From NCBI GenBank assembly GCA_020793555.1, contig DQIO01000312.1:1-18990 (forward strand): DNA of 18,990 nt. The letters are read 5' to 3'. The stretch comes from Methanosarcinaceae archaeon. GTDB taxonomy: Archaea > Halobacteriota > Methanosarcinia > Methanosarcinales > Methanosarcinaceae. Positions 1 through 18,742 of the stretch are shown in pieces; position 1 is the stretch's first letter; each line of letters starts with the position of its first letter. Below the pieces are notes generated by a model. The model saw only the letters and a program-made list of their open reading frames with translations, was not told the origin of the DNA and searched no databases. A program made the translations under genes and the position numbers.

Positions 1-44
1 CAACGACCTCATTGCGCCGCATCTGAATACTCAAACAGCCTTAT

Positions 45-1334
45 TCAAACCTTCGCACCACACTTTCCACAGAAACTAGCGTCCGCAGGAATAGGTGCCC
101 CACAACTCGAACATTTTTTCATATTAGACCTGGCCGAAGACATCGGTTTTGCAGCACCCATCAAATCAGCATCAAGCCCCATCCTGCGATTGGCATCAGC
201 GCGCTCGCGGTCTTCAACATCCATCATGAACTGTACCTTATCTTCCTTAGCTCGCGCCTCAGTTTCCTTCATCTTTGCGAGGGCTTCGAGTTGTTCGGGT
301 GACATGCCACTAAGTTCACGACCCTGTACAATCGTGTTGGCAACATCAGCGCCGCCTGTTTCGGTAACCGATTTCAGATACTCCATATCGCGCCCGTGTT
401 TGCGGTCGGTCATATCCTCATCAAGTTCCATCTCTGCACGTTTTGCATCCGTCTTAGCATCTTTCCATGACTTGAATGTGTCAATAGCCTGCCGCGCTTC
501 TGCTGCGTCCGCTTCGTTTTCGATAGTTGAGATCTCAGCCTCGTGGCGCGCATCCTTTATCCCCTCGGCGCGGCCATGTTCGCGCATCGCTGCCTCAGGT
601 GCAATATCGCCCCTGACCTTTGCAACATCCTCGCGCCCCATGCGCTCAAGATCGCCTTCGGCGGCAAGGGTATCCATCTCCTTAAGCTCTTCATCAGTCT
701 GATATTTATTTGATGCATCCAAAACGGAAACATAATCGCCAAGGTCCCACTGCACTGTGTATCGAAGCAGTTCAAGTCCCCACATGGAAAGCGTAGTCTT
801 AAGTTGCATCTCAAGTTCATTCTCCAGCTTAAGCTGGAGGTCGCGGTTCCCGTAGACGTTATCCATAGTCACCTGCTTGATCTCAGGCTCAAGTACCCGT
901 GAGATCGTCTCGCTCTCAAGACGCCCGTAAATATCCTGAACAGAAAGTACGCGCCCTCCTTTTTTATCAGGAGTTGTATAAGCAAAAAGCATCTGGAAAA
1001 AGCGCTTGGGGTCTTGCATCTTGAATCGCAGTATCCCACCGCAACCTACCTTTTGGTTATCGGCTGTCCACAGGTCGGCATGTTCCCAGTCAAGATCTTT
1101 TGGGGATGTGTCCATGAGTGCAACATCCACATCCTTCCCAATATTGCCGGGTTTGAGCAAGCCGCCAACGCGCAACTTTCCGCTATCGATAATCTCTTTG
1201 ACAACACCGTTTCTGATAATCACAGCCTTTTCGTTTGGGGAAATTACTACGGATTTACTAAACACTCCGCCAACGTCTTTTTTTGAGATCACACGTGCAA
1301 TATCATCTATCTGTTTCTTCCATTTGAATACCAT
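45..1334 (-). CDS. SPFH-domain (YdjI/virion-core-like) protein with C-terminal zinc ribbon
   Basis: This 429-residue protein probably acts as a membrane-associated scaffold. Residues about 25-210 look like an SPFH/band-7 domain of the YdjI type, with the pattern ISPNEKAVIIRNGVV followed by beta-rich segments and a DPKRFF turn. Residues about 212-385 are rich in Glu, Lys, Arg and Ala and should form long helices or coiled coil, as in other SPFH proteins. Residues 408-428 form a CxxC-x10-CxxC zinc ribbon (C408, C411, C422, C425). There is no clear transmembrane segment, so attachment would be peripheral. The start is supported by GGTGTC six bases upstream and a TATA box at 1368-1381. It is divergent from the RHH-Snf7 genes. 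SPFH proteins of this type are known to neighbour PspA/Snf7 genes, which fits the context. The fold call is by pattern; the function is inferred. Confidence 0.75.
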   Translation of the reverse strand: MVFKWKKQIDDIARVISKKDVGGVFSKSVVISPNEKAVIIRNGVVKEIIDSGKLRVGGLLKPGNIGKDVDVALMDTSPKDLDWEHADLWTADNQKVGCGGILRFKMQDPKRFFQMLFAYTTPDKKGGRVLSVQDIYGRLESETISRVLEPEIKQVTMDNVYGNRDLQLKLENELEMQLKTTLSMWGLELLRYTVQWDLGDYVSVLDASNKYQTDEELKEMDTLAAEGDLERMGREDVAKVRGDIAPEAAMREHGRAEGIKDARHEAEISTIENEADAAEARQAIDTFKSWKDAKTDAKRAEMELDEDMTDRKHGRDMEYLKSVTETGGADVANTIVQGRELSGMSPEQLEALAKMKETEARAKEDKVQFMMDVEDRERADANRRMGLDADLMGAAKPMSSARSNMKKCSSCGAPIPADASFCGKCGAKV

Positions 1335-1367
1335 GTTTTTGACACCTTACCATTACGAATAATTTTG

Positions 1368-1381
1368 ACTATATAATATAT
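1368..1381 (-). promoter_or_regulatory. Putative TATA box for the SPFH gene
   Basis: The minus strand reads as an AT-only TATA-like run ending about 34 bases before the SPFH start codon. Transcription would begin near 1350, leaving a short leader that contains the GGTGTC ribosome binding site. Confidence 0.45.
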
Positions 1382-1390
1382 TGAGTAAGT

Positions 1391-1402
1391 ATTATATATA
1401 TT
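1391..1402 (+). promoter_or_regulatory. Putative TATA box for the RHH-Snf7 operon
   Basis: The run ATTATATATATT lies about 25 bases upstream of a perfect palindrome. The expected transcription start is near 1420, about 37 bases before the RHH start codon. It is back to back with the SPFH promoter. Confidence 0.45.
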
Positions 1403-1409
1403 GTTTTCC

Positions 1410-1421
1410 ATTGTATACAAT
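1410..1421. promoter_or_regulatory. 12-bp perfect palindrome, candidate RHH operator
   Basis: ATTGTATACAAT is a perfect palindrome placed over the expected start of transcription of the RHH-Snf7 operon. RHH proteins bind short palindromes as dimers or tetramers and often repress their own operon. The position therefore suggests autorepression by the gene at 1457. This is inference; AT-rich palindromes also arise by chance. Confidence 0.35.
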
Positions 1422-1456
1422 AGTAATACATAATAACCCTAATCGGTGGAGAACAA

Positions 1457-1612
1457 ATGAAACGATCCTATGCAGTTAGTGCACGAGTATCAGAAAATAG
1501 TAAACAGTATCTGGACGAGTTAGTTGAAAAAGGGATAGCGATCAATAAATCCGAAGCATTGAAAATATGTATAAGGTATGCCAAACAAATGAAAATGGAG
1601 GAGGAGATATAA
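1457..1612 (+). CDS. Small ribbon-helix-helix (CopG/MetJ-like) DNA-binding protein
   Basis: This is a 51-residue protein starting MKRSYAVSARVSEN. The layout is that of a ribbon-helix-helix domain: a basic alternating strand (SYAVSARV), a first helix (NSKQYLDELVEKG), a turn with INKSEA, and a second helix (LKICIRYAKQM). Its stop codon TAA is immediately followed by the ATG of the Snf7-like gene. The Snf7 ribosome binding site (GGAGGAG) lies inside its last codons, so the two are translationally coupled. Its own start is preceded by GGTGGAG. It is probably the local transcription factor of the cluster, with the palindrome at 1410-1421 as a possible target. The pairing of an RHH gene with a Snf7-family gene is unlikely to be accidental given zero spacing. 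Confidence 0.75.
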   Translation: MKRSYAVSARVSENSKQYLDELVEKGIAINKSEALKICIRYAKQMKMEEEI

Positions 1613-2176
1613 ATGGGAATAAGTAATCCATTCAAAAAAGTGTCACCAGACGAGATGAAGACAAAACTTTCGATGTCCGAACAGAGATTATCAACACGTG
1701 AGAGGGAACTTGATAAAAAACGCCAGAAGGCGCGTGACCAGGCAAAAGAAGCGCTTGCAAACGGAAACGACCGCGAATTCAGGGTCGCATCCCGCAGGCA
1801 TTCCATGGTTGAGGGGCAGGTTAATACTATCAGCAGCATGGTTGAGATGGCACAGTCCATGTCAGATGTTATTGAGATGCAGACCGGACTTAAAGAGGTT
1901 GTTGATATTGGAAATGACCTTGGTAAGTGGCAAAAAGAACTTGGGTTTGACACAAGCAAGTTAGAGGGCGCAGTCACCAACATCCGCACTTCGATGGAAA
2001 AAGTAAATACCGCAACCAACATGATGACCAGTTCAATGGATGCAGCCATGGGCGGCGGAACTGAACTCAGCGATATGCAGGATTCTCTCAGAGGCGAACT
2101 TCTTGCAGAACTTAGTAGTGATACAGCATCTGATGACAAGTTGTCAAAGAAGATCGAAGAAGAGATGGAAGAGTGA
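1613..2176 (+). CDS. ESCRT-III/Snf7-family (CdvB-like) coiled-coil protein
   Basis: This 187-residue, almost entirely helical protein is probably a membrane-remodelling filament subunit. The N-terminal half (about 15-75) is a long charged helical hairpin with the sequence LANGNDREFRVASRRHSMVE at the turn and second helix, the pattern seen in Snf7 proteins. Residues 75-150 give further amphipathic helices rich in Met and Ser. The C-terminal tail (about 158-187) is acidic, with a leucine-repeat helix (LRGELLAEL) where ESCRT-III proteins carry the MIT-interacting motif; it does not match the MIM1 consensus exactly. A MIT-domain Vps4-like ATPase is encoded next, which supports the assignment over PspA. 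The start directly follows the RHH stop and has a strong GGAGGAG site. A PspA/IM30 identity is the main alternative, since the two families share the fold. Confidence 0.72.
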   Translation: MGISNPFKKVSPDEMKTKLSMSEQRLSTRERELDKKRQKARDQAKEALANGNDREFRVASRRHSMVEGQVNTISSMVEMAQSMSDVIEMQTGLKEVVDIGNDLGKWQKELGFDTSKLEGAVTNIRTSMEKVNTATNMMTSSMDAAMGGGTELSDMQDSLRGELLAELSSDTASDDKLSKKIEEEMEE

Positions 2177-2248
2177 TTTAATTTTGTGAATGAGTGAAAC
2201 TGCACTGTTCCAAAATTCAGTTATTCAATGCATATTGAACAAAATTTC

Positions 2249-2316
2249 ACCGCGGAGAACGCAGAGGGCGCAGAGGGCGCAGAGTTATATTCAGCCCTCT
2301 GCGCGTTCTCTGCGGT
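2249..2316. repeat. GC-rich inverted repeat of the GCAGAG type
   Basis: The left arm begins ACCGCGGAGAACGCAGAGG at 2249. The right arm (GCCCTCTGCGCGTTCTCTGCGGT, 2294-2316) is its near-perfect reverse complement. Inside the left arm the unit GCAGAGGGC is repeated in tandem (from 2261 and 2270). It sits in the 220-bp gap between the Snf7 and Vps4 genes and could fold into a strong hairpin. I recognise this as a motif dispersed in many environmental prokaryote genomes. Whether it is a mobile element, a terminator or a processing site cannot be told here. Confidence 0.7.
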
Positions 2317-2358
2317 TTGTTTTTCCAACATTTCGAACGTATGTTAAATGATTCTTTA

Positions 2359-2382
2359 CCATATATTAGGATAATTATATTT
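2359..2382 (+). promoter_or_regulatory. Putative promoter of the Vps4-like gene
   Basis: TATA-like runs (ATATATTAGG at 2361-2370 and ATAATTATAT at 2371-2380) lie 30-45 bases before the likely start codon and downstream of the inverted repeat. The ATPase may therefore have its own promoter in addition to any read-through from the RHH-Snf7 operon. Confidence 0.35.
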
Positions 2383-2409
2383 TTACGATAATCTAAAATG
2401 AGGAATCCC

Positions 2410-3570
2410 ATGTCATCATCAACAACCCTTGCCGCCCAGGCACGCGGATATGCAAAAGCTGCCAGAACATTGGAAGACGATAACAATCTCAAAAATGCCA
2501 GGGAACTCTACCTCAAGGCAGCTAAGTTATACAATGAAGCATCCAAAATCGCAAGTGATAAGACAGATAGCAACACACAGCGCGACCTTGCCGAGCATCT
2601 TCTGAACAAAGCACAATCACTCAAAAGCACTGGTGTCCAACAGTCAGGCTCTGGTGTGAGTAGTGAAGGCAGGGGCGGTAGTGACACGGACGAATCTTCG
2701 TTGTCAAAAGACGACCTGATCCTAAAGGAGATCCCTAACATCGGATTCGATGATATTGGCGGTCTTGAATCTGTTAAAGAGGAGATCAGAAAAGCGATCA
2801 TCTACCCATTCACCCACAAGGACCTGTATAAGATGTATGGACAGAAAGCAGGCGAGGGGATTCTCCTCTACGGTCCGCCTGGATGCGGCAAGACCATGAT
2901 GGCAAAGGCTGCTGCAAGGGAATGCGGCGCGGATTTCATTAGCGTCAAGACAAGCAGCATTGTTAGTAAGTGGGTCGGTGCGTCCGAGAAGAACATCAAA
3001 CAGGTGTTTGAGACCGCGCGCCAGTCCGAAAAAACGATTGTCTTTTTCGATGAGATCGATTCCATTGCCGGACGGCGCAGTGAGAGTGAGGACTACGCCA
3101 AGCGCGTGGTTAACGAACTTCTTGCCCAGATGGACGGCGTTGATACAGCCGACGACGAACTCCTGATACTTGCAGCTACCAACGAGCCGTGGACAATCGA
3201 CCCTGCACTCCGCCGCCCCGGGCGTTTCAGCAAACTTGTGTACATTCCCGAACCTGACCTCGATGCCCGCGCCGCGATATTCAAGATCAATATGAAAGGG
3301 CGCCCGATTGCTGCTGATGTTGATGTGAACCGACTGGCTGGGATGACTGACTCCTATTCCGGCGCAGACATTTCCGCTATCTGCAAGGAGGCGGCGGATA
3401 TTCCTCTTGGTGAGGCACTTCGCGGTGGCACACCACGCAAGATCGAAGATAGAGATTTTATCAAAGTGCTGGAGGGGAGGAAGCCTTCAATTTTGAGCTG
3501 GTATGTTGAGGCTCGGAGGGAGGTTAAGAAGAGTGGGGAGGAGGCGGTTTTTGATGGGATTATGGGATGA
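2410..3570 (+). CDS. Vps4/CdvC-like AAA ATPase with N-terminal MIT-like domain
   Basis: From ATG 2410 the protein has 386 residues, the usual size for archaeal Vps4/CdvC. Residues 1-75 are a helical bundle (AARTLEDDNNLKNARELYLKA) typical of a MIT domain, which in this family binds ESCRT-III tails. A Ser/Gly-rich linker (75-100) follows. The AAA module shows Walker A GPPGCGKT (155-162), pore loop KWVG (187-190), Walker B IVFFDEID (210-217), sensor 1 AATN (255-258), arginine fingers RRPGRF (268-273) and SGAD sensor 2 (317-320). All catalytic residues are present, so it should be an active ATPase that disassembles Snf7-type filaments. GAGGA sits just before ATG 2410; the in-frame ATG at 2398 has no such site. 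The stop overlaps the next gene as ATGA. PAN/Cdc48-type ATPases are excluded by the single AAA domain and the MIT-like N-terminus. Confidence 0.85.
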   Translation: MSSSTTLAAQARGYAKAARTLEDDNNLKNARELYLKAAKLYNEASKIASDKTDSNTQRDLAEHLLNKAQSLKSTGVQQSGSGVSSEGRGGSDTDESSLSKDDLILKEIPNIGFDDIGGLESVKEEIRKAIIYPFTHKDLYKMYGQKAGEGILLYGPPGCGKTMMAKAAARECGADFISVKTSSIVSKWVGASEKNIKQVFETARQSEKTIVFFDEIDSIAGRRSESEDYAKRVVNELLAQMDGVDTADDELLILAATNEPWTIDPALRRPGRFSKLVYIPEPDLDARAAIFKINMKGRPIAADVDVNRLAGMTDSYSGADISAICKEAADIPLGEALRGGTPRKIEDRDFIKVLEGRKPSILSWYVEARREVKKSGEEAVFDGIMG

Positions 3571-6005
3571 AATGTGCACAATTTGATAACATTTTTTGTA
3601 AAACGGATGTGATTAGTGTGGAAAAAATAAGTTTCAAAGAAAATCTGCGTACTGCTTTGACTGTTGGAGCGGTGGTGGGATTTTTTATTGGCATATTTGG
3701 CGGTTCAATTGTTAGTGGATTATTCGTAGGATTAATTGTTGGATTAATTAGTTGTATAATGTTTACTAACGATGATAATTATTATCCAATGATGGGATTA
3801 TGGGTTGGTTTATTTTTTGGCGGCACCATTGGATTATTAATAGGAGTTTTCGCCGATGTGATATATATTGGTCTATTTGTAGGTGGGACTGTTGGTGGAT
3901 ATACAACCTTTTTAATAAATGACAAAAATAAAAAACTTCTAATAGAATATGAAAATCAAAATGACAAATATGCAAATAACATCGAGATATATGCTGATTC
4001 TCATATACCATTAAAACTTGGTGTCGAAAATCCAGTTAAAATTACAGTAAATAATAAAACAGAAACAACAATTTCAAATATTCATCTAAAATCAAATTTT
4101 CCAAAATCGGTGATTTGCAATGAGACTATTGTATTAATAGAGGAAGTTCCCGAAGGATTATCAAAATCCATAACTCTGTTAGTAACTCCAACAGTTGCCA
4201 ATGAAATCAATTTGGACGACCTCGAAATAACACTTGATATCAACGGTAATCCTTATGAAAAAGAACCTGTTAAAATCGGTATATTTGATGTGATACCACC
4301 TGAAATCGACATTCAGATCGATGTGCCTAACCCCTTTAAAGTCGGAATGGAGAATCCAGTTAAAATTACAGTGAAAAATCAATCGGATGTGCTCCTATCC
4401 AATGTTCAAATTGAAACACATTTTTCAAGACTAATCACATGTGACGAAACTATAGTGCACACTGATAATATTCCTTCAAACTCATCTGAATACACAGCCA
4501 TATTCATAACTCCAAGAATGGCGGATAAAATCAACTTAGGCGACCTCAATTTATCATATGACATTAATGGCAACACATACGAAAAAGAACCAATAGCAAT
4601 GGGAATTTATGAGGCAGTCGAAGTAACATCACACAAACCCACTAAATATTCAGGCGACATCAATTCAGATATATCTATTTCCCGCGAAACCGAATTCTAT
4701 CAAGGTTATATTCGCTTTAAAATGTCTGTCACCAACACTTCATCATTTGTAGTAAACGATGTTGCTCTCGATTTTGATTATGATCACAACTTATTGCGAA
4801 TCGACAGACGTGAACCTGATTATCAAACCAAAAATGGCAGAACTATATTTGGAAACATCTCTGCCAATTCATCAAAAACCATTGCAGTCTACTTTGACCC
4901 GATGATGTGTTCCAAAGGTGCAGATATCAACTGTCAGGTAAATTACAAAGATGCAAAAGGGCAACCTCAAACTACACACATGAAACCAAAACAAATCAGT
5001 GTAGTTTGTCCGATTATGGAAACTGAATCGGATATAAATATCGGTCGGCTCAAAGAGTTCATTGAAAAACTGCCATATCGGGACAGTAAAGTGTACCAAG
5101 TTCAGAATGATTTTGATATTGATGTACTGAAAAATATCTCTCGGGAAATTATACAAAAACACGATGTAAAGCATATACGTACACTATTCACTAAAGATAG
5201 AAACACATGTGAGATATGGTATTATGGTAAAACAAAAGTACATAGCCATGATATTGTCATTAAAATTACAATTTTGAGTGAAACACAGAACATTGAATTG
5301 TTTGCTGCAACGGAGACTGTGGAATCACTTGCCGGACTTCTGGCAGAGGTTGGACGTGAGTTGAAAGGTGCAATTGAAAATAAAGTCACTGGCAATGTTC
5401 AACAGGTCATCAATGTTTCAATTAAGGATTCGATCATTCAGCGAAGCAACCTTTTGAGTTATTGTGATATTGACGACAATTGCAGTGGGGATGTTGTAAT
5501 TGAAGATAGTCTTGTGCAGCGTTCGGACGTAGGCAATGTTGAATTTGAAAATAAAGTAGTGAGCAAAGAGATGGATAAAGAGAAAGTGTATAATTATTTA
5601 CTAAATATTGTAAATAATAGTTCAAATATTGAGGATATGAATATTGAATACAAAGAGGTTTTGAGCTATTTTAATCGGGATACGCAATCTATGCCCTTGT
5701 TATTTAATCGACTTAATGAAATTTGTAGAAATAATCACGAACGAAAAGAGCCATTGATATCTGCAATTGTTGTCAATGAAGAGCCTCAGATACCTGGTAA
5801 AGGTTTTTTTGATAATTGTATGCGTAAATATAGGGGTTATACAGGTCCATCCGATGGACCAAAAGCACAGATAGCACATAACGAAGAATTAAAACGTGTA
5901 TTTAGCCACTGGCATAATGGTAACAAAAACTCTTGCCCGGCGTGTGGTGGAGTTGTGCCGGATGGTGCGAAATTCTGCATGGAATGTGGTGGGAAAATCG
6001 AATAA
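3567..6005 (+). CDS. Large membrane-anchored multi-domain protein with beta repeats and C-terminal zinc ribbon
   Basis: This 812-residue protein is of unrecognised function. Residues about 25-120 form several glycine-rich transmembrane segments. Two tandem beta-sandwich (CARDB-like) repeats follow at about 138-240 and 247-349; they share ENPVKITV near the start and an ITLDINGN/LSYDINGN stretch near the end. A third Ig-like domain lies at about 360-482. An alpha/beta region at 485-605 ends LAGLLAEVGREL, a block I believe recurs in archaeal proteins. Residues 615-655 hold two copies of a motif of the form IKDSIIQRS. A helical domain with the pattern SAIVVNEEPQIPGKGFF spans about 672-785. The zinc ribbon has C790, C793, C804 and C807. 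The gene overlaps the ATPase stop (ATGA), so coupling is likely. An in-frame GTG at 3618 could be the true start. Confidence 0.65.
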   Translation: MKCAQFDNIFCKTDVISVEKISFKENLRTALTVGAVVGFFIGIFGGSIVSGLFVGLIVGLISCIMFTNDDNYYPMMGLWVGLFFGGTIGLLIGVFADVIYIGLFVGGTVGGYTTFLINDKNKKLLIEYENQNDKYANNIEIYADSHIPLKLGVENPVKITVNNKTETTISNIHLKSNFPKSVICNETIVLIEEVPEGLSKSITLLVTPTVANEINLDDLEITLDINGNPYEKEPVKIGIFDVIPPEIDIQIDVPNPFKVGMENPVKITVKNQSDVLLSNVQIETHFSRLITCDETIVHTDNIPSNSSEYTAIFITPRMADKINLGDLNLSYDINGNTYEKEPIAMGIYEAVEVTSHKPTKYSGDINSDISISRETEFYQGYIRFKMSVTNTSSFVVNDVALDFDYDHNLLRIDRREPDYQTKNGRTIFGNISANSSKTIAVYFDPMMCSKGADINCQVNYKDAKGQPQTTHMKPKQISVVCPIMETESDINIGRLKEFIEKLPYRDSKVYQVQNDFDIDVLKNISREIIQKHDVKHIRTLFTKDRNTCEIWYYGKTKVHSHDIVIKITILSETQNIELFAATETVESLAGLLAEVGRELKGAIENKVTGNVQQVINVSIKDSIIQRSNLLSYCDIDDNCSGDVVIEDSLVQRSDVGNVEFENKVVSKEMDKEKVYNYLLNIVNNSSNIEDMNIEYKEVLSYFNRDTQSMPLLFNRLNEICRNNHERKEPLISAIVVNEEPQIPGKGFFDNCMRKYRGYTGPSDGPKAQIAHNEELKRVFSHWHNGNKNSCPACGGVVPDGAKFCMECGGKIE
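4029..4372 (+). repeat. Internal duplication of a 108-codon beta domain
   Basis: The 20-base string AATCCAGTTAAAATTACAGT occurs at 4029 and again at 4353, exactly 324 bases (108 codons) apart and in the same frame. The flanking protein sequence is clearly similar for about 100 residues. This is a fairly recent tandem domain duplication inside the 812-residue protein. Confidence 0.8.
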
Positions 6006-6043
6006 TACGGCTATTTATTAGACGATAGTGGGTGAGTAAAAAT

Positions 6044-6898
6044 ATGGTATATACCAACAAATCAAAAGTCAATAAAGACTTAAATGATTGCTTGCGTGAA
6101 CTGGACAGCACAAATTACAGAACACGCACAAGCGCCGCAATAAATATATCAGTACTTGCTAAAAAAGGAATATACCATAATTATGCCATTCAACCATTGA
6201 CAAAATTGTTGTCTGATAAATATAAATCGGTGCGAAAGCAGGCGGCTTTTGCACTTGGAGATATTGCAGAATGTGGAGTTTGGGACAAAAATGCGATAAT
6301 ACCATTAAAGAAACTATTATCTGACAAAGATCATGAAGTGCGATGGAGTGCGACTTTTGCACTGAGGGTACTTGCTAAAAATGATATTTTTGAACGCAAC
6401 GCAATACAATGTTTTGAAAAATTATTGTTTGACAGATATCATCGTGTACGCTATAATGCTGCATTTGCACTTGGTGCTCTTGCAGAGCATGAAATTTGTT
6501 CTAAGTCTACACTATACCCTTTAATCACTTTACTGGCTGACCGCAACAGTATGGTGCGTAGAAGTGCTGCTTTTTCAATTGGTTGTCTTGCAAAGAATGA
6601 TATCTTTGATATTGTTGCTGTTAAACCATTAACGAGTTTACTATCGGATAAGAATCATGTTGTCCGCAAAAATGCTGCACAAGCACTTACAGTGCTGAAC
6701 GAAAAAGGTGCGGGGGGAATCAATGAAAAGAATATGGTGCAACACATTCACTATGGCGACAACATTGGTACGCAGGTAAAAGATAGTTTTGTTTATAAAT
6801 CCAGCATTAATGATGATGCCAAAACGTGTCCTTCATGCGGACGCGAAGTTGGCGAAGATGAACGATTCTGTATGGAATGCGGAGGGAAATTAATATGA
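6044..6898 (+). CDS. HEAT-repeat protein with C-terminal zinc ribbon
   Basis: This 284-residue soluble protein probably acts as a binding scaffold. Residues about 20-220 contain five HEAT/PBS-type repeats of about 41 residues; a typical unit reads PLTKLLSDKYKSVRKQAAFA. Residues 236-256 carry the motif VKDSFVYKSS, which resembles the IKDSIIQRS motif of the preceding protein. A zinc ribbon follows (C262, C265, C276, C279) ending FCMECGGKLI, nearly identical to the end of the preceding protein (FCMECGGKIE). I chose ATG 6044 because GGTGAG lies just upstream of it; the in-frame GTG at 6032 overlaps that site. The 38-bp gap after the previous gene suggests the same transcript. The partner bound by the HEAT repeats is unknown. 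Confidence 0.75.
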   Translation: MVYTNKSKVNKDLNDCLRELDSTNYRTRTSAAINISVLAKKGIYHNYAIQPLTKLLSDKYKSVRKQAAFALGDIAECGVWDKNAIIPLKKLLSDKDHEVRWSATFALRVLAKNDIFERNAIQCFEKLLFDRYHRVRYNAAFALGALAEHEICSKSTLYPLITLLADRNSMVRRSAAFSIGCLAKNDIFDIVAVKPLTSLLSDKNHVVRKNAAQALTVLNEKGAGGINEKNMVQHIHYGDNIGTQVKDSFVYKSSINDDAKTCPSCGREVGEDERFCMECGGKLI

Positions 6899-7031: not shown

Positions 7032-7328
7032 ATGGAAATTGTAGAAGATGGAATAAATGCTCTTGTCGGGCAGAAGATTTACAATTCAAAGGACGCAGTC
7101 ATTATTGATGCCATTCGGGCATTGCTTGAACTTAAACCTAATCTTAAGATTGAAATTGCAATAAATCTCTATAAAAATAAAAAGATCAGTTTATGGAAAG
7201 CAGCTGAAACAGCAGGACTTGAGATGGAACAATTTAAAGAAATCCTGTCAGCGAGAAATATTAAGATCGAAATCGATGGAACAAAGGAAGAAAGTAAAAA
7301 ACGTATTGAACGTGCTTTGGGTGCTTAA
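7032..7328 (+). CDS. UPF0175-family antitoxin (VapB-like), first copy
   Basis: This 98-residue protein is likely the antitoxin partner and repressor for the PIN gene that follows. The C-terminal half has the UPF0175 pattern AINLYKNKKISLWKAAETAG followed by EQFKEIL. The N-terminal 45 residues (NSKDAVIIDAIRALLE) look like a ribbon-helix-helix segment. Its stop codon TAA is followed at once by the ATG of the PIN gene, the usual toxin-antitoxin coupling. A GAGG site lies upstream. It is related to the copy at 8830 but clearly diverged, so the two pairs are old paralogues or separate acquisitions. Confidence 0.8.
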   Translation: MEIVEDGINALVGQKIYNSKDAVIIDAIRALLELKPNLKIEIAINLYKNKKISLWKAAETAGLEMEQFKEILSARNIKIEIDGTKEESKKRIERALGA

Positions 7329-7820
7329 ATGTTCATTCTTGATTGTGATATTGCAAGCACTTTTGCCAAGATTAACAAAATCGATCTGTTGAAAGCGACA
7401 CTCCCATCAGATGTTTGTATATCAAATTCCGTATATATCGAACTTATGCGGGCAAAAGAGATGGGTTTCTCTTTTCCGGATACAATATTTAACAACATAA
7501 CCACAATCACTTTAAATGACAGTGAGTTAATAGATTTCCAAAAATTTTCACAAGAGAAGAAAATACATTTTGGTGAAACTGAAGGCATAGCCATCTGTAA
7601 AAATCGAAATGCTGTTTTTCTTACCAATGATTCCATCGTTGTCAAATTTTGTGAAGCTAAGGGAATTAAGGTCTTGAATTTGAAGGATGTACTTATTTTC
7701 ATGGCAGGGAGCAATCTTGTCTCAAAAACTGAGATGATGGACATTATAAAAGATATCGAAGATAGAGACAATACCGTAATCAAACATAAGAAGGATATCC
7801 TTGAGGAATATGATTCCTGA
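7329..7820 (+). CDS. PIN-domain ribonuclease (VapC-like toxin), first copy
   Basis: This 163-residue PIN protein is probably the toxin of a UPF0175-PIN pair, cutting RNA with a divalent metal. The acidic residues expected at the active site are visible: D5 (and D7) in the first strand, E38 in YIELMRAKE, E83/E85 in GETEGIAI, and D101 in FLTNDS. The gene starts immediately after the antitoxin stop, and no residue seems lost, so it may be active. The length is typical of the DUF3368-like PIN proteins paired with UPF0175. The cellular RNA target is unknown. Confidence 0.8.
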   Translation: MFILDCDIASTFAKINKIDLLKATLPSDVCISNSVYIELMRAKEMGFSFPDTIFNNITTITLNDSELIDFQKFSQEKKIHFGETEGIAICKNRNAVFLTNDSIVVKFCEAKGIKVLNLKDVLIFMAGSNLVSKTEMMDIIKDIEDRDNTVIKHKKDILEEYDS

Positions 7821-7859
7821 TGATTTTGGATATTTTCAATATTGGATGATGACATATTT

Positions 7860-7925
7860 GGGGGATGGACAGAATTAACAGGATGGGGCGAGCCACTTGA
7901 ATCCCGTCAATCCTGTTCATCCTCC
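7860..7925. repeat. Inverted repeat of the ACAGGAT/ATCCTGT type
   Basis: The left arm is 7860-7884 (starting GGGGGATGGACAGAATTAAC) and the right arm 7901-7925, with a 16-base loop. The arms match at 20 of 25 positions, and every difference is A versus G, so part of the mismatch is tolerated as G-U pairs in RNA. I recognise this as a class of dispersed palindrome common in environmental prokaryotes. It lies between the first PIN gene and the AbiEi remnant. Confidence 0.75.
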
Positions 7926-7940
7926 CAATTGATTCACGCA

Positions 7941-7948
7941 TTTTTTTT
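7941..7948 (+). terminator. Oligo-T tract after the inverted repeat
   Basis: Eight consecutive T residues follow the hairpin at 7860-7925. Archaeal termination uses oligo-T tracts, so this is a plausible terminator for the UPF0175-PIN operon. Confidence 0.4.
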
Positions 7949-7974
7949 CAATACATGCCATTGCACTCATTCCC

Positions 7975-8670
7975 AAATACATTTATGGCGAATATACAGC
8001 CAAACTGCTTGGAGAAGGAAAACTTTAAAAGATCAGAAAGGGATTATATGCAGTTCTGTCTCCATTGGAAGAACCAACAAAACACATTTCAGATAAGTTC
8101 ATCATCGCAGGCAAGATCAGGGATCGTTATTATCTTGGGTTTCATTCTGCGCTTGAATATTATGGGTCAGCATACAGTCATTATAATGAAGTGTACATTA
8201 CAATCCTTCCTGAAAATCGTTTTTCTTCTTTTAAATATCAGAACCTTAATTTTAAGCCGATTTTTACAAAAGATATTTCATTTGGCATCGAAACAAAAAA
8301 GTACCGCACCACTGAAATAAAAGTGAGCAGTAAAGAACGCACTTTTGTTGACTGTGTAGACAGGCCGAATTATGCAGGTGGATGGGAAGAATGCCTCAAA
8401 AGTCTCAGTGTCTTAAGTGGACTTGATTTCAATAAAATTACTGACATTCTTGGCATGTACAACAAAAAAAATCTTTATGCCAAAGTTGGTTTTGTACTTG
8501 AACTGTTGCGTGAACGTTCCGTTTTCTATGAACACCTAAGCGATGAAACATTAGACAAAATTAAAGCACATAAACCAAAGACTCCAAAGTACCTTGAAAG
8601 ATCAGGCTGGAGCACTTTGAATAAAGATTGGAATCTCTACATTATGGAAGAGTTTGTTGAGTATCTTTAG
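7975..8670 (+). pseudogene. Orphan AbiEi-like antitoxin gene, broken near its N-terminus
   Basis: From 8065 to 8670 the frame encodes the AbiEi-type C-terminal domain: FIIAGKIRDRYYLGFHSALEYYG, then KERTFVDCVDRPNYAGGWEE, as in type IV toxin-antitoxin antitoxins. The same frame continues upstream and reads KGLYAVLSPLEEPT, the usual junction from the winged-helix domain. An in-frame TAA at 8026-8028 interrupts it. Before that stop the frame still reads YGEYTAKLLGEGKL, the kind of sequence expected in the missing winged helix, but it is too short and has no start codon. An N-terminal deletion plus a nonsense change is likely. A shortened product from TTG 8065 cannot be excluded. No AbiEii nucleotidyltransferase toxin gene follows, so the antitoxin is an orphan. 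Confidence 0.7.
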
Positions 8671-8829
8671 ATTAAAAGGCTCAATATATCATGAAACATT
8701 TCATTTAACAAGCATTGGCTTACCAAGTAGAAAATATAAAACCGCCGAAAATGAGGGGGTTCTTGATTGACAAAGGAAAAGATTTTATCATAAGAAAAAT
8801 AATAATATCATAATCAAGAGGTTAATAAA

Positions 8830-9135
8830 ATGGAAACGCTGTCAATTAGTGTGGATCGGAAAGTAAAGGCACTGGTAAATGCGGGGTATTATTCCAGTGA
8901 ATTAGATGTAATCAAAGACGCTATAAGAAGTCTATTCAGGGAGAACGCGGAACTTAAGGTTAATGCAGCGATAGAACTGTATAAAGAAGAGGAAGTATCC
9001 TTGAGTAAAGCAGCTGAGATGGCAGGGGTAACTACTATCGAATTTAAAGATCTCTTGGGTAAACGGGGAATCATAAGAGAGATAGAGGCGAGACCAGCTG
9101 CGGAAATAGACCGGAAAGTTAAAAAATACCTCTGA
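8830..9135 (+). CDS. UPF0175-family antitoxin (VapB-like), second copy
   Basis: This 101-residue protein has an N-terminal ribbon-helix-helix-like segment (LSISVDRKVKALVNAGYYSS, then DVIKDAIRSLF) and a UPF0175 part (AIELYKEEEVSLSKAAEMAG, EFKDLLGKRG). It is the likely antitoxin of the PIN gene two bases downstream. AGAGGT precedes the start. The 159-bp region upstream (8671-8829) holds no gene I can support. Confidence 0.82.
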   Translation: METLSISVDRKVKALVNAGYYSSELDVIKDAIRSLFRENAELKVNAAIELYKEEEVSLSKAAEMAGVTTIEFKDLLGKRGIIREIEARPAAEIDRKVKKYL

Positions 9136-9137
9136 AA

Positions 9138-9632
9138 ATGATCTTCGATACAGATATTTTGAGCATACTTGGTAAGTTAGGCAGAGCCGATTTGTTGAGA
9201 AAATTGTTTCCGGAAACAAACCTACTAATTACTTTTGAAGTGTACAACGAACTTTTAATAGCAAAGGAAGTTGGGTATAATTTTGTTGAAGATATCTTAA
9301 AGCAAAAATTCAAAATCGTTCATCTGGACTCCGATCTAACTCTGGAGTATGAACAGATGAAAGAAAAATTAATAGGTATCCATGCGGGTGAACTGACATC
9401 CATCCTGTTATGTAAAAAAGAAGGCATGGATTTCGTAACCAACGATAAAAAAGCGAAGATATATTGTAAAGAAATTGGTGTGGAGTGGTTAGACATTATC
9501 GACATGCTCAGGTTATGTTATCTCAAGCGCTTACTAAACAGAAAAGAAATTGAAACTTTGATCAGTGATATCGAAAAAACTGACAGGACGAGAATAACAC
9601 GATCTGATGAAATCTTTGCTGATTATGCATGA
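9138..9632 (+). CDS. PIN-domain ribonuclease (VapC-like toxin), second copy
   Basis: This 164-residue PIN protein is the likely toxin of the second UPF0175-PIN pair. Active-site acids visible are D4 and D6 (FDTDIL), E38 (VYNELLIAKE), E85 (HAGELTS) and D103 (FVTNDKKA). It is the same length as the copy at 7329 and follows the same layout (NELLIAKEVG against IELMRAKEMG), showing common descent with strong divergence. It begins two bases after the antitoxin stop. The site appears intact, so an active RNase is expected. Confidence 0.82.
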   Translation: MIFDTDILSILGKLGRADLLRKLFPETNLLITFEVYNELLIAKEVGYNFVEDILKQKFKIVHLDSDLTLEYEQMKEKLIGIHAGELTSILLCKKEGMDFVTNDKKAKIYCKEIGVEWLDIIDMLRLCYLKRLLNRKEIETLISDIEKTDRTRITRSDEIFADYA

Positions 9633-9793
9633 AATCCATGTTTTTACTCCCCACAATACAATCTTAATCCACAGCTTATGGATGGTTTCTAGCTCGCTCC
9701 GACCACCGCAGTAGAATTTGAAAGAATGTCATACAGACTGTAAAACCTAACAACATAAATGTTTTAATCATTCGACTCGTAATACTAAGTATT

Positions 9794-11212
9794 ATGAGTC
9801 TATTCATTAACCGAACCGAAGAACTTGACTTTCTCGAATCCGAATATGCAAAAGATTCATCGTCACTCGTCATAATCCATGGAAGGCGGCGTGTTGGTAA
9901 AACAGAACTTTCACTCAAATTTGGAGCAGGAAAACCATCAGTATACTACCTTGCCCAAAAATTGAATCTTGAACATCAGGTAGATGACTTTCTGGAAAAG
10001 ACATCTGAACAGCTCGATGTACACCAACCAAAAATCACAAAATGGGATGGGGCACTCAAATTTATTGCAGAGCAGATGAAAGGAAAAGGTAAGCCACTTA
10101 TCATAATCGACGAGGTTCCGTACTTAATAGAAGGCAGCAATGCGGCCATGTCAGCATTTCAGGCGGCATGGGACCTACATCTTAAAGATGCAAACGTAAT
10201 GGTAATTCTTCTTGGTTCAAGCATCGGAATGATGGAAAATGAAGTTATTGGCTATAAATCACCCCTCTATGGTCGAAGGAGCGGACAGATTAAAGTCGAA
10301 CCACTAAAATACAAACACACTGCATATTTCTTCCCGCAAAAGACCACAGAAGAGATCGTTCAAACATACGGCTGTCTGGGAGGCGTGCCTGCATATCTTA
10401 ATAAGTTCGATGAAAGTCTCTCGTTCATTGATAATGTAAATAAGAACATACTTCACAGAGCAACTTTCCTTTATGATGAAGCCAATTTCCTGTTGAAACA
10501 AGAACTAAGAGAACCGGCCAAATATGAACTGATCCTTGAAGCGATTTCCAAAGGCAAGAATAGAGTCTCCGAAATATCAAACGAAACAGGCATACCAGTC
10601 AACAATATTCCTAAATATCTGCGTGTTCTTATAGATCTTGGATTCGTAACTAAAGAATTGCCTATAATTCTTAAAAAAGCACGGGACATAAGAACAGGTT
10701 CCATCTACACAATATCTGATAATTTCATGAAATTTTGGTACACATACGTGTATCCGACAAGATCAATATTGGAAATAAACCGGGATGCTGCCGTCTCAAA
10801 AATAAGCGACACATATAACCGATATCTTGGTCATGTTTTTGAAGACATTGTGAAACAATATCTCATCGATCAGAACGTTTCCAATAATTTACCAATTGTT
10901 TTTGAAAGGATAGGGCGGCAGTGGGGCAATATCCAGGGAAAACAAAAAGGGAAAAACAGTTATGAGATTGATCTTGTTGCATTGAATGAGAGTTCAAAAG
11001 AGATCTTATTCATTGAATGTAAATGGCAGGTTCTAACGAACAAAAATACAAAACAAATCCTTAATGACCTGAAGGAAAAATCAAGATATGTTTATTGGAA
11101 CAATGAAGAACGGAAAGATTATTTCGCCGTTGTTGGAAAGAAGATAGAAAATAAGGTCGAATTAAGAAAAAATGGAATTATGGTTTTCGATTTAGATGAA
11201 CTCTTTGCATGA
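9794..11212 (+). CDS. Archaeal ATPase (ATPase_2) with DUF234 / PD-(D/E)XK-like C-terminus
   Basis: This 472-residue protein is a P-loop ATPase of the large archaeal family with a nuclease-like tail. Walker A is GRRRVGKT (30-37), Walker B LIIIDEV (102-108), and the sensor stretch VILLGSS (137-143). A winged-helix region spans about 245-300 (SEISNETGIPVNNIPKYLRV). The C-terminal DUF234 part has E350 (HVFEDIV), D393 (EIDLVAL) and E408-x-K410 (IECKW), the layout of a PD-(D/E)XK fold with its acidic and lysine residues kept. These genes are common orphans in archaeal accessory regions and their role is not settled; defence or element maintenance is often suspected. The upstream gap (9633-9793) has only a small hairpin at 9667-9683. 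Confidence 0.85.
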   Translation: MSLFINRTEELDFLESEYAKDSSSLVIIHGRRRVGKTELSLKFGAGKPSVYYLAQKLNLEHQVDDFLEKTSEQLDVHQPKITKWDGALKFIAEQMKGKGKPLIIIDEVPYLIEGSNAAMSAFQAAWDLHLKDANVMVILLGSSIGMMENEVIGYKSPLYGRRSGQIKVEPLKYKHTAYFFPQKTTEEIVQTYGCLGGVPAYLNKFDESLSFIDNVNKNILHRATFLYDEANFLLKQELREPAKYELILEAISKGKNRVSEISNETGIPVNNIPKYLRVLIDLGFVTKELPIILKKARDIRTGSIYTISDNFMKFWYTYVYPTRSILEINRDAAVSKISDTYNRYLGHVFEDIVKQYLIDQNVSNNLPIVFERIGRQWGNIQGKQKGKNSYEIDLVALNESSKEILFIECKWQVLTNKNTKQILNDLKEKSRYVYWNNEERKDYFAVVGKKIENKVELRKNGIMVFDLDELFA

Positions 11213-11325
11213 AACTATAAAATGTTGCAAAATGTCATTCTAAACATTTATCAAACAAGTAGATCAAAACATATTAACATCACATTAACCTTAGCACTCT
11301 GACCAAATAACAGATGGTGACGTAC

Positions 11326-12498
11326 ATGACCGACAACGAAACAGATCCAAGTGACCTACAACAATCAAACCGCCAGACCGCTATCAACAACCTGCGAGAT
11401 ACGCATGCTGTGATCGAAAGACTGATGAATAAAACCTATCAGCAGCAGGATGTAACTGCAAGTTCAGCACTCCGCCAGATCAGGACAAAGGTAACCGCGC
11501 TGCTTTCAGATATGGAGAACATAGATCTCGACACATTCAGCGGACGGGAGGGGACACTGGAGGAGTTCTACGACAACGAGGGACGTTTCATCGAAAGTTC
11601 AACTGGACTGCTAAAAACAGCCGAAGATGCTTTGGAGTCAGGCGAATCAGTCGATACATACTCAATCGAAAGTTCAGTTGATACACTGGAAAAGAGTTTC
11701 AACAACCGGATAATCCTCACAAAAAAACATTTACAAGAATATGAGAAAAAACGAACCGAGTCCCAGTCCCGGAAAGAACCGGGTAGCAGCGCGCCGGATG
11801 CAGAACCAAAAACCGAATCATCCGCGTGGCTTAATGATACAACTAAAAATTATGCATCAGTGATACCAAAAATGTACAACTACATCAATATCCTTGAACA
11901 AAAATACACTCACTGTCAGCCTGAAGTTTCAAACAACGGAGATTATCTTGGAAACAAGACATGGAAAGTCGATCTCCTTGATTACGGTATTCGCGGCACA
12001 GTCAAAGATGGGGCATTCAAAATACCGCTTGTTTTTGAAACATACTGGTACCCATTAAACAGTGTGCTGGAAGCCGCACAGTTTGTGCAGTCGCAGGCGA
12101 ATGAGGTTGGCAAAAGCCAGTACAAGAGCCTGTGTCTTATCAACGATGTATGGGACGATAAAATCAAGGAGTGGGTTAAAGATTTCGTTCATCAGCGCAT
12201 GTCGCTGTTCTTGTATGAACTGGAAAATGACACGCTCACCTATAAAGACAAATCAGAAATCACAGAACGGTTCGAGTTCTGGCATTCCAATACTATATTT
12301 AAAGCACCTATTGAAGAGGAGATAAAAATTCTTATCGAGAAAATGGAATATTTCACAGTAAATGATGTCATGGGAATGTTTGGGTTCAACACAAAAGGAG
12401 CAGAGGCGTATCTCTATGACCTGATGAAAAAAGGAGAGATCATTGACGTTGGGCTTGACAGTCCAAAATATACGAAGGTTAAACATCGTGAGCAGTAG
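11326..12498 (+). CDS. Unrecognised two-domain protein with a C-terminal winged-helix-like end
   Basis: I do not recognise a named family. From ATG 11326 it has 390 residues. Residues 1-145 are helical and charged with no signal peptide, and residues about 146-165 form a Ser/Pro/Glu-rich linker. The second half (about 168-330) is alpha/beta, with a central stretch YKSLCLINDVWDDKIKEWVK followed by LFLYELENDTLTYKDKSE. This reminds me of degenerate restriction-endonuclease-like folds, but I see no complete catalytic motif. The end (FTVNDVMGMFGFNTKGAEAY, then LMKKGEIIDVG) looks like a winged helix. I chose 11326 because GGTGAC lies seven bases upstream; the in-frame ATG at 11314 overlaps that site. 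It stands alone, with about 100 bp before and 240 bp after. Confidence 0.6.
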   Translation: MTDNETDPSDLQQSNRQTAINNLRDTHAVIERLMNKTYQQQDVTASSALRQIRTKVTALLSDMENIDLDTFSGREGTLEEFYDNEGRFIESSTGLLKTAEDALESGESVDTYSIESSVDTLEKSFNNRIILTKKHLQEYEKKRTESQSRKEPGSSAPDAEPKTESSAWLNDTTKNYASVIPKMYNYINILEQKYTHCQPEVSNNGDYLGNKTWKVDLLDYGIRGTVKDGAFKIPLVFETYWYPLNSVLEAAQFVQSQANEVGKSQYKSLCLINDVWDDKIKEWVKDFVHQRMSLFLYELENDTLTYKDKSEITERFEFWHSNTIFKAPIEEEIKILIEKMEYFTVNDVMGMFGFNTKGAEAYLYDLMKKGEIIDVGLDSPKYTKVKHREQ

Positions 12499-18001: not shown

Positions 18002-18742
18002 TTAATCCTGCATTACAAACAGACAATGTTTATAACCATTTCCAAAACATTCTGTCTCCTTGATAGTGCAGTTGAGCCCCAATTTCCCATAAATAATTCC
18101 TTCGAGAAGCCCTTCATCAAAAGAACAAAGTGTTTTGCCAACAACAGGCATTGATTTGCAGTCGAAACATTCGTAAACAATGACTGTCAATGGATTCATG
18201 CTAATGACAGACATGTCACCCATATTGTGTGTTTTCCAGAAATGTGATGTATCCTTGAGCACACCATCAAGATCAGTTGATTTAAAGTTTACAGATATAC
18301 TTTCACCTATATCTGCACCAATCTTTTTCATGATAGGCTCATGATTGATCCCATATGCTTCAAAACCAAATCGGATGGCGTGAAAAATTGATTTTAAGAA
18401 ACTACATTCACCATCACTGGAAGATGCGACTCTTTGTATAATATTGTTATAATGTTTTATGATAGGTTCTTGCGAACAAGCCATGTATTGAGAATTCAGG
18501 TTATATATCTTTTTTCGCTTGTCATTGGGATCAATTTTCTCTTCGAGCAAATCACATGATTTAAGGTCAGTAATGTGCACTGAAATTGTTGATTTTGCTT
18601 TTCCGGTATGTTTTACAATTTCATCGAACGATCTTGAGCCGGTTTTCAGGAAATCCAATATTTTAAGTTTGACAGGACCATTTAATGCAATGAAACCATT
18701 GTCTGTAGAAAATAATGCAGTGTGGTTTCCAGCTCGTTTCAT
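18002..18742 (-). CDS. msvR: MsvR-like redox regulator: winged helix plus V4R domain
   Basis: This 246-residue protein has an ArsR-type winged helix at about 15-85 (GPVKLKILDFLKTGSRSFDE, KSTISVHITDLKS) and a V4R domain at about 115-245. Six cysteines in the V4R part (192, 195, 206, 225, 232, 240) fit the redox-sensing arrangement known in MsvR of methanogens, where cysteine state changes DNA binding. The length also fits that family. Its promoter holds a TTCG-N8-CGAA inverted repeat, the kind of site reported for MsvR, so autoregulation is likely. The expected transcription start is within a few bases of the ATG and no ribosome binding site is seen, so translation may be leaderless. MsvR rather than another V4R regulator is likely but not certain. 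Confidence 0.75.
   Translation of the reverse strand: MKRAGNHTALFSTDNGFIALNGPVKLKILDFLKTGSRSFDEIVKHTGKAKSTISVHITDLKSCDLLEEKIDPNDKRKKIYNLNSQYMACSQEPIIKHYNNIIQRVASSSDGECSFLKSIFHAIRFGFEAYGINHEPIMKKIGADIGESISVNFKSTDLDGVLKDTSHFWKTHNMGDMSVISMNPLTVIVYECFDCKSMPVVGKTLCSFDEGLLEGIIYGKLGLNCTIKETECFGNGYKHCLFVMQD

Follow-up and report, generated by a model that had tools for sequence, protein, structure and literature searches.

The window analysed here is a complete contig (C146) of 18,990 nucleotides from a Methanosarcinaceae relative, whose assembly comprises 2.56 Mb in 334 contigs, and it carries a cluster of genes of the endosomal sorting complex required for transport (ESCRT). ESCRT is a membrane-cutting machinery found also in human cells. 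To learn what it did before eukaryotes, most experiments have used either TACK archaea, whose cells it divides, or Asgard archaea, whose cultivation is difficult. Judged by its gene content, the cluster is of the Meth_adaptin type, a kind of archaeal ESCRT cluster already described (Makarova et al. 2024, PMC10936438).

Gene order and identity of the ESCRT core

The initial annotation proposed an ESCRT-III/Vps4-like pair with SPFH and ribbon-helix-helix (RHH) partners in a euryarchaeon, and all four genes were found in place with profile matches (Table 1). An SPFH-zinc-ribbon gene on the minus strand is followed on the plus strand by genes for the RHH, ESCRT-III-like, Vps4-like, Ig-like (immunoglobulin-like)/zinc-ribbon and HEAT/zinc-ribbon proteins. 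Base 1 is the contig end, which cuts the left side of the cluster. Downstream of the HEAT gene lie toxin-antitoxin-type genes and an ATPase gene (7032-11212), and then the gene for a 394-amino-acid (aa) protein. The stretches 3567-6898 and 11314-12498, overlooked in the initial annotation, thus also belong to the cluster. In another locus of the same genus (L056) the HEAT gene directly adjoins the 394-aa gene, so the segment 7032-11212 represents either an insertion here or a loss there.

Table 1. Genes and presumed control elements of the ESCRT cluster in the window
Position	Strand	Feature	Basis
45..1334	-	SPFH (Band 7) protein, 429 aa; coiled coil, zinc ribbon at the C-terminus	Band_7 and Zn_Ribbon_1 above cut-off
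1393..1400	+	TATATATA, presumed TATA box of the RHH-ESCRT-III operon	Identical in 20/20 loci; promoter role inferred
1404..1427	+	Presumed RHH operator, the palindrome TTTTCCATTGTATACAATAGTAAT	Left arm and centre kept in 20/20 loci
1457..1612	+	RHH (CopG-type) protein, 51 aa, presumed autoregulator	RHH_1 match below cut-off; L063 ortholog above
1613..2176	+	ESCRT-III-like (Snf7 superfamily) protein, 187 aa	Snf7 in family members; AlphaFold model; fold search
2398..3570	+	Vps4-like ATPase, N-terminal MIT and one AAA domain, 390 aa	AAA, MIT, motifs
3567..6005	+	Membrane protein, 812 aa; Ig-like (adaptin-appendage-like) repeats, zinc ribbon at the C-terminus	Cluster member in 14/16 loci
6032..6898	+	Accessory protein, 288 aa; HEAT repeats, zinc ribbon at the C-terminus	HEAT 113 bits
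11314..12498	+	Candidate ESCRT-II-like subunit, 394 aa; helical N-terminal part, alpha/beta domain in the centre, winged helix at the C-terminus	18/20 loci; AlphaFold; central-domain homology

The cluster was compared across 20 loci, 13 of which came from a survey of 60 genomes of the order (37 of the own family, and 6, 5, 6 and 6 of further families) and three and four from two other searches. In all 20 the SPFH gene was divergent from the adjacent RHH-ESCRT-III pair, so the association of these genes is not due to chance, and the neighbourhood is kept in Methanosarcinales, contrary to the lack of conservation that the initial annotation had named as a refutation.

The ESCRT-III-like protein of the window matched Pfam Snf7 below the cut-off (E 0.0026; 17.9 bits against 27.3). 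Snf7 was nevertheless the commonest Pfam match in its family, being found in 32 of the 40 members at E ≤ 0.1 (best 3.1e-5), and the fold search with the AlphaFold model returned ESCRT-III filaments in its first rows, at E 0.03 or worse. The model predicts an ESCRT-III fold with a helical hairpin core; an unrelated coiled coil, the other outcome named beforehand as a refutation, was not what emerged.

The ATPase scored 154 bits against Pfam AAA. Over residues 5-371 it aligned to the CdvC model (an NCBIfam equivalog) with 243 bits, the cut-off of 650 not being reached, and a Cdc48 model scored 278 over the AAA part. When the N-termini of 18 orthologs were compared with MIT, 16 gave E ≤ 0.1 (best 2.4e-6), and the window protein gave 0.0075, below the cut-off; the best PDB row for a profile of the MIT region was Calpain-7 (E 0.0056). 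The catalytic motifs, noted earlier as intact, proved invariant in all 18 orthologs (Walker A, Walker B, N262 and R272/R273), and the Vps4_C helix was absent among the 25 of 42 Pfam matches listed.

In a small tree that contained no TACK, Asgard or eukaryote references, 14 cluster Vps4s and the L178 protein formed one clade (support 100) apart from the Cdc48 domains of the own genome and from PAN. Their placement relative to four Vps4s from other archaeal ESCRT loci had support values of just 51 and 57, one of the four standing apart from the other three. Pairwise, the cluster AAA domain was nearer to Cdc48 D2 (230 bits) than to the Vps4s compared from the Main clade of euryarchaeal ESCRTs (134-147). 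The Vps4 label therefore rests on the MIT region, the single AAA domain and the neighbours; MIT or ESCRT neighbours are also the criteria for Vps4 in the text of PMC10936438. The nearest named relative of the ATPase, at 92% identity, belongs to a Methanosarcinaceae metagenome-assembled genome (L002), and metagenome matches at 31-41% identity were seen in Bacteroidales.

The gap between the ESCRT-III and Vps4 genes is unusually long, 221 bases against at most 185 in the other loci where both genes are close. It holds a palindromic repeat of the CGCGGAGAACGCAGAGG type (2251-2330), the core of which has eight matches with at most one mismatch in the own genome. In loci from other families of the order (L055, L065 and L064, at 10652-11666 in the last) differing small genes, one of them for a DUF2204 nucleotidyltransferase, lie between the two. 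A second ESCRT-III was considered at this place in L064 and L065 and rejected: a 159-aa protein had no Pfam match, and the L064 neighbour is the nucleotidyltransferase.

The presumed RHH regulator and a conserved promoter palindrome

The 51-aa RHH protein matched RHH_1 at E 0.0018 with 18.6 bits, below the cut-off of 20.5. Seven of nine cluster RHH proteins matched at E ≤ 0.1, and only the L063 ortholog (4.4e-5) lay above the cut-off. The RHH stop and the ESCRT-III start directly abut in 9 loci and overlap by one base in the other 11, and most loci have a GAGGAGG-like ribosome site within the last part of the RHH gene, so translational coupling of the two genes is likely. RHH orthologs occur as one copy each in exactly the same 13 of the 60 surveyed genomes as ESCRT-III.

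The region between the SPFH and RHH genes varies in length and sequence, and TATATATA, two bases and GTTTTCYATTGTATACA are kept within it in all 20 loci. The distance from TATATATA to the dyad is constant throughout, and the conserved element makes up half or all of a 24-base dyad, which takes its perfect form in L055. The pattern TTTTCYATTGTATAC was derived from the same loci in which it was later counted; finding it there is thus uninformative, and the test lies in its absence from the rest of those genomes. An exact 15-mer of the element was found at a single place in each of the 13 ESCRT-III-positive genomes and in one of the 47 negative ones (G035), and a reversed control in one of the 60. 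The G035 copy lies inside a coding sequence.

The proposal of an RHH-regulated system agrees with this strictly conserved palindrome, and the arrangement makes autoregulation of the operon by RHH likely. A dedicated autoregulator with one target would be the simplest reading. A structured RNA or DNA at the promoter was rejected: Rfam had no match across the window, and the single-strand fold gave a z of -1.1.

Partner proteins and relation to known ESCRT systems

The SPFH protein matched Pfam Band_7 with 41.4 bits (cut-off 23.6), and its C-terminal zinc ribbon also scored above cut-off. The start of the Ig-like/zinc-ribbon gene overlaps the Vps4 stop, and its product has three hydrophobic segments. 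Similarity to Alpha_adaptinC2 was below the cut-off for both the window protein (E 0.0039) and its L064 paralog (2.6e-4), two of ten proteins matched in the aligned region, and the Ig-like protein had no PDB match; the adaptin-like structure of such proteins is taken from the text of PMC10936438. Another Ig-like/zinc-ribbon protein, in L056, carries PEGA and CARDB domains, and a third, in L059, scored above the TRAPPC13_C cut-off. Full-length orthologs of the HEAT protein were present in only 3 of 16 loci, the window included, and it was rejected as a core component.

The 394-aa winged-helix gene was recovered in 18 of the 20 loci; the L055 contig is only 3.1 kb long. Its product was modelled by AlphaFold with a pLDDT of 80, and its central domain is homologous to that of the Main-clade winged-helix protein (profile comparison E 4e-7; best of 30 shuffles 0.19). 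This similarity was not found with the winged helix alone (E 0.13) or the N-terminus alone (E 0.55). The protein is therefore put forward as a candidate ESCRT-II-like subunit; the name arCOG09748 for its Main-clade counterpart was matched only to the description in the text of PMC10936438. Two winged-helix matches outside ESCRT loci were set aside as chance, one (G062) in an operon read as acetyl-CoA synthase/CO dehydrogenase and the other (C113 of G127) beside restriction-modification-like genes. Around a third match, in G285, no further cluster gene lay within the stretch examined.

The Meth_adaptin clade, as its text in PMC10936438 presents it, shares with the window a MIT-bearing Vps4, ESCRT-III, an SPFH protein with coiled coil and zinc ribbon, and Ig-like zinc-ribbon proteins. 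The Vps4-like ATPase beside ESCRT-III and the SPFH protein with both features are found here. The same text describes adaptin-appendage (Ig and TBP-like) proteins, one with a zinc ribbon, together with ProX-like and GOLD-fused components, and proposes a sorting role for such systems. Such a set in a euryarchaeon is not unexpected, as the clade with its SPFH and zinc-ribbon partners is already in that text. In the text on the clade we found no RHH gene (0 occurrences of 'rhh' or 'ribbon-helix-helix'), palindromic element or winged-helix protein. The RHH protein with a conserved DNA site, and the winged-helix link to other archaeal ESCRT loci, thus appear to be new relative to the text; either gene may be listed in the figures or supplement of the paper, where the arCOG lists stand.

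The Main-clade euryarchaeal ESCRT of PMC10936438 shares Vps4, ESCRT-III and a protein with a homologous central domain and C-terminal winged helix, and this central domain joins two ESCRT clades that are given different partners in the published text. The Main-type loci L090 and L166 differ: each has several ESCRT-III-like genes and a 177-181-aa protein that agrees with what the text says of arCOG08177, kinase genes are present in L090 as well, and no SPFH match to the window protein was found in either. One genome of the same family (G016) has a Main-type ESCRT locus instead (L166, 2921-9094), and G029 has a matching winged-helix protein. With CdvABC of TACK division the window shares ESCRT-III and a MIT-AAA ATPase; it differs in missing the CdvC cut-off, in the FtsZ-family genes that its genome also has and in that no CdvA was seen among the described genes.

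Distribution and proposed function

ESCRT-III was found in 13 of the 60 relatives. The own family, with 37 genomes, accounts for 9 of these; among four other families of the order, one had it in 3 of 6 genomes, one in 1 of 5, and two (6 genomes each) in none. Phylum-wide it was present in 14 of 294 genomes, 13 of them of the own family and one a partial match. FtsZ-family genes were found in all 60 relatives, so an essential division role is unlikely, in line with the earlier suggestion of another role. Most relatives lack the cluster, which is probably dispensable. One genome (G271) retains only a Vps4 end and a 394-aa-type gene containing a stop; judged from these remnants, it is a decayed copy. 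Patchy patterns of this kind are read in the text of PMC10936438 as vertical descent with losses, and the data here fit such a history.

Read directly from the DNA are the gene set and order, the MIT and AAA motifs, ESCRT-III-like and SPFH proteins, a coupled RHH gene and an invariant promoter palindrome; a role in budding, sorting or repair would be our inference from them. A repressor-controlled set that joins a membrane scaffold, a polymer, an ATPase for its disassembly and adaptor-like proteins anchored in the membrane points to conditional budding or sorting. We consider it reasonably probable that this is a Meth_adaptin-type cluster with a built-in regulator that serves conditional outward budding or sorting and not essential division. 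An RHH dimer would repress its own operon by binding the palindrome, which would overlap the interval separating the TATA box from the start site; once repression was lifted, RHH, ESCRT-III and Vps4 would be made together. The SPFH membrane scaffold would bring ESCRT-III to the cytosolic side of the cytoplasmic membrane, where ESCRT-III would polymerise, and the Ig-like/zinc-ribbon membrane proteins and the winged-helix protein, as an ESCRT-II-like adaptor, would connect the polymer with cargo or with sites on the membrane. Vps4 would dock its MIT domain onto the C-terminal helix of ESCRT-III and remodel the polymer using ATP. Outward budding of membrane cargo (vesicles) or its sorting, in either case conditional, is the likely outcome; membrane repair is the second choice, and division would be left to FtsZ.

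We propose more tentatively that this is a self-gated ESCRT of Methanosarcinales, in which a 51-aa RHH protein, coupled in translation to ESCRT-III, would turn the complete machinery on and off through a single genomic operator at the SPFH/RHH promoter. The machinery would also contain an ESCRT-II-like winged-helix subunit that other euryarchaeal ESCRTs possess too. If so, ESCRT-II, ESCRT-III and Vps4 would form an ancestral archaeal unit that could be studied in culturable methanogens not needing it for division. The methanogens that carry the set have FtsZ, and cultured ones are among them (relatives named Methanolobus, Methanococcoides and Methanohalophilus); the RHH-operator pair offers a direct handle for switching it on and probing the effect on the membrane.

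Envelope-stress repair is a less likely alternative, in which SPFH and ESCRT-III would be the counterparts of Bacillus YdjI and PspA, with Vps4 added and RHH sensing the stress. PspA is the classical partner of SPFH/YdjI systems. The Bacillus YdjFGHI/PspA-YdjI operon likewise has an SPFH protein working with an ESCRT-III superfamily protein, which there is PspA and here is of the Snf7 type with a Vps4-like ATPase. The zinc-ribbon SPFH gene beside an ESCRT-III superfamily gene speaks for this explanation, as does YdjI linking PspA to the membrane (cited in the text of PMC10936438). PspA_IM30 (PF04012) had no match at 1e-5 in the own genome and none in the seven genomes of the genus searched, which also favours it. 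Across the survey, however, PspA did not track the cluster, occurring in 7 of the 13 genomes with ESCRT-III and in 27 of the 47 without it; the two do not replace each other, and replacement of PspA by the cluster was rejected. Moreover, 47 of the 60 genomes manage without the cluster and, to our knowledge, the YdjI operon has no Ig-like or winged-helix partners, which we count against a repair system of this kind.

An accessory division or cell-separation device beside FtsZ, under RHH control as in CdrS-ftsZ2 and aCcr1-cdvA, seems improbable. It has a precedent, since RHH regulators control division genes in haloarchaea, where the CdrS gene is co-transcribed with ftsZ2, and in Saccharolobus, where aCcr1 acts on CdvA (texts of PMC7617429 and PMC7439475). 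These systems share with the window an RHH regulator of membrane-constriction genes; here RHH is coupled to ESCRT-III, and the likeness noted is one of RHH type. The own genome has a separate CdrS-like RHH open reading frame just upstream of an FtsZ-family gene (L180), which fits the idea, but the cluster RHH protein had no phmmer match to the open reading frames around the three FtsZ-family genes of this genome and was rejected as a CdrS paralog. The presence of FtsZ-family genes in all 60 relatives when only 13 have the cluster, the decay in G271 and the pattern within the genus weigh against a division device as well: G001 has the cluster, and searches of the five remaining genomes, two of them (G004 and G005) >90% complete, did not detect it.

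We regard an antiviral or virus-related membrane system in a defence island as very improbable. The patchy distribution of the cluster, the UPF0175/PIN pairs, the AbiEi-like gene and the PDC-S27-matching ATPase between the HEAT and winged-helix genes, and matches of the ATPase to IetA models would suit it. Yet the insertion is absent from L056, IetA matches are expected from AAA proteins generally, and neither the SPFH, the ESCRT-III nor the Ig-like protein had a PADLOC match at 1e-5.

Several further features of the contig deserve mention. Within the segment between the HEAT and 394-aa genes, the AbiEi-like gene is flanked by two gene pairs (7032-7820 and 8830-9632; ~44% and ~32% identical), in both of which a UPF0175/RHH-like gene precedes a PIN-like one; they are toxin-antitoxin-type cassettes within the ESCRT cluster (7032-9632). 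They are followed by the ATPase gene (9794-11212), whose product matches the PADLOC candidate PDC-S27 across residues 1-445. The end of contig C124 of the same assembly (L190, 11038-11442) holds a 95% identical copy of the SPFH gene end (window 1-405, 405 bases), which adjoins Ig-like/zinc-ribbon genes, apparently interrupted; it is either a strain variant of one locus or a second copy. Finally, 18002-18742 on the minus strand encodes an MsvR transcription factor, which scored 303 bits (cut-off 220).

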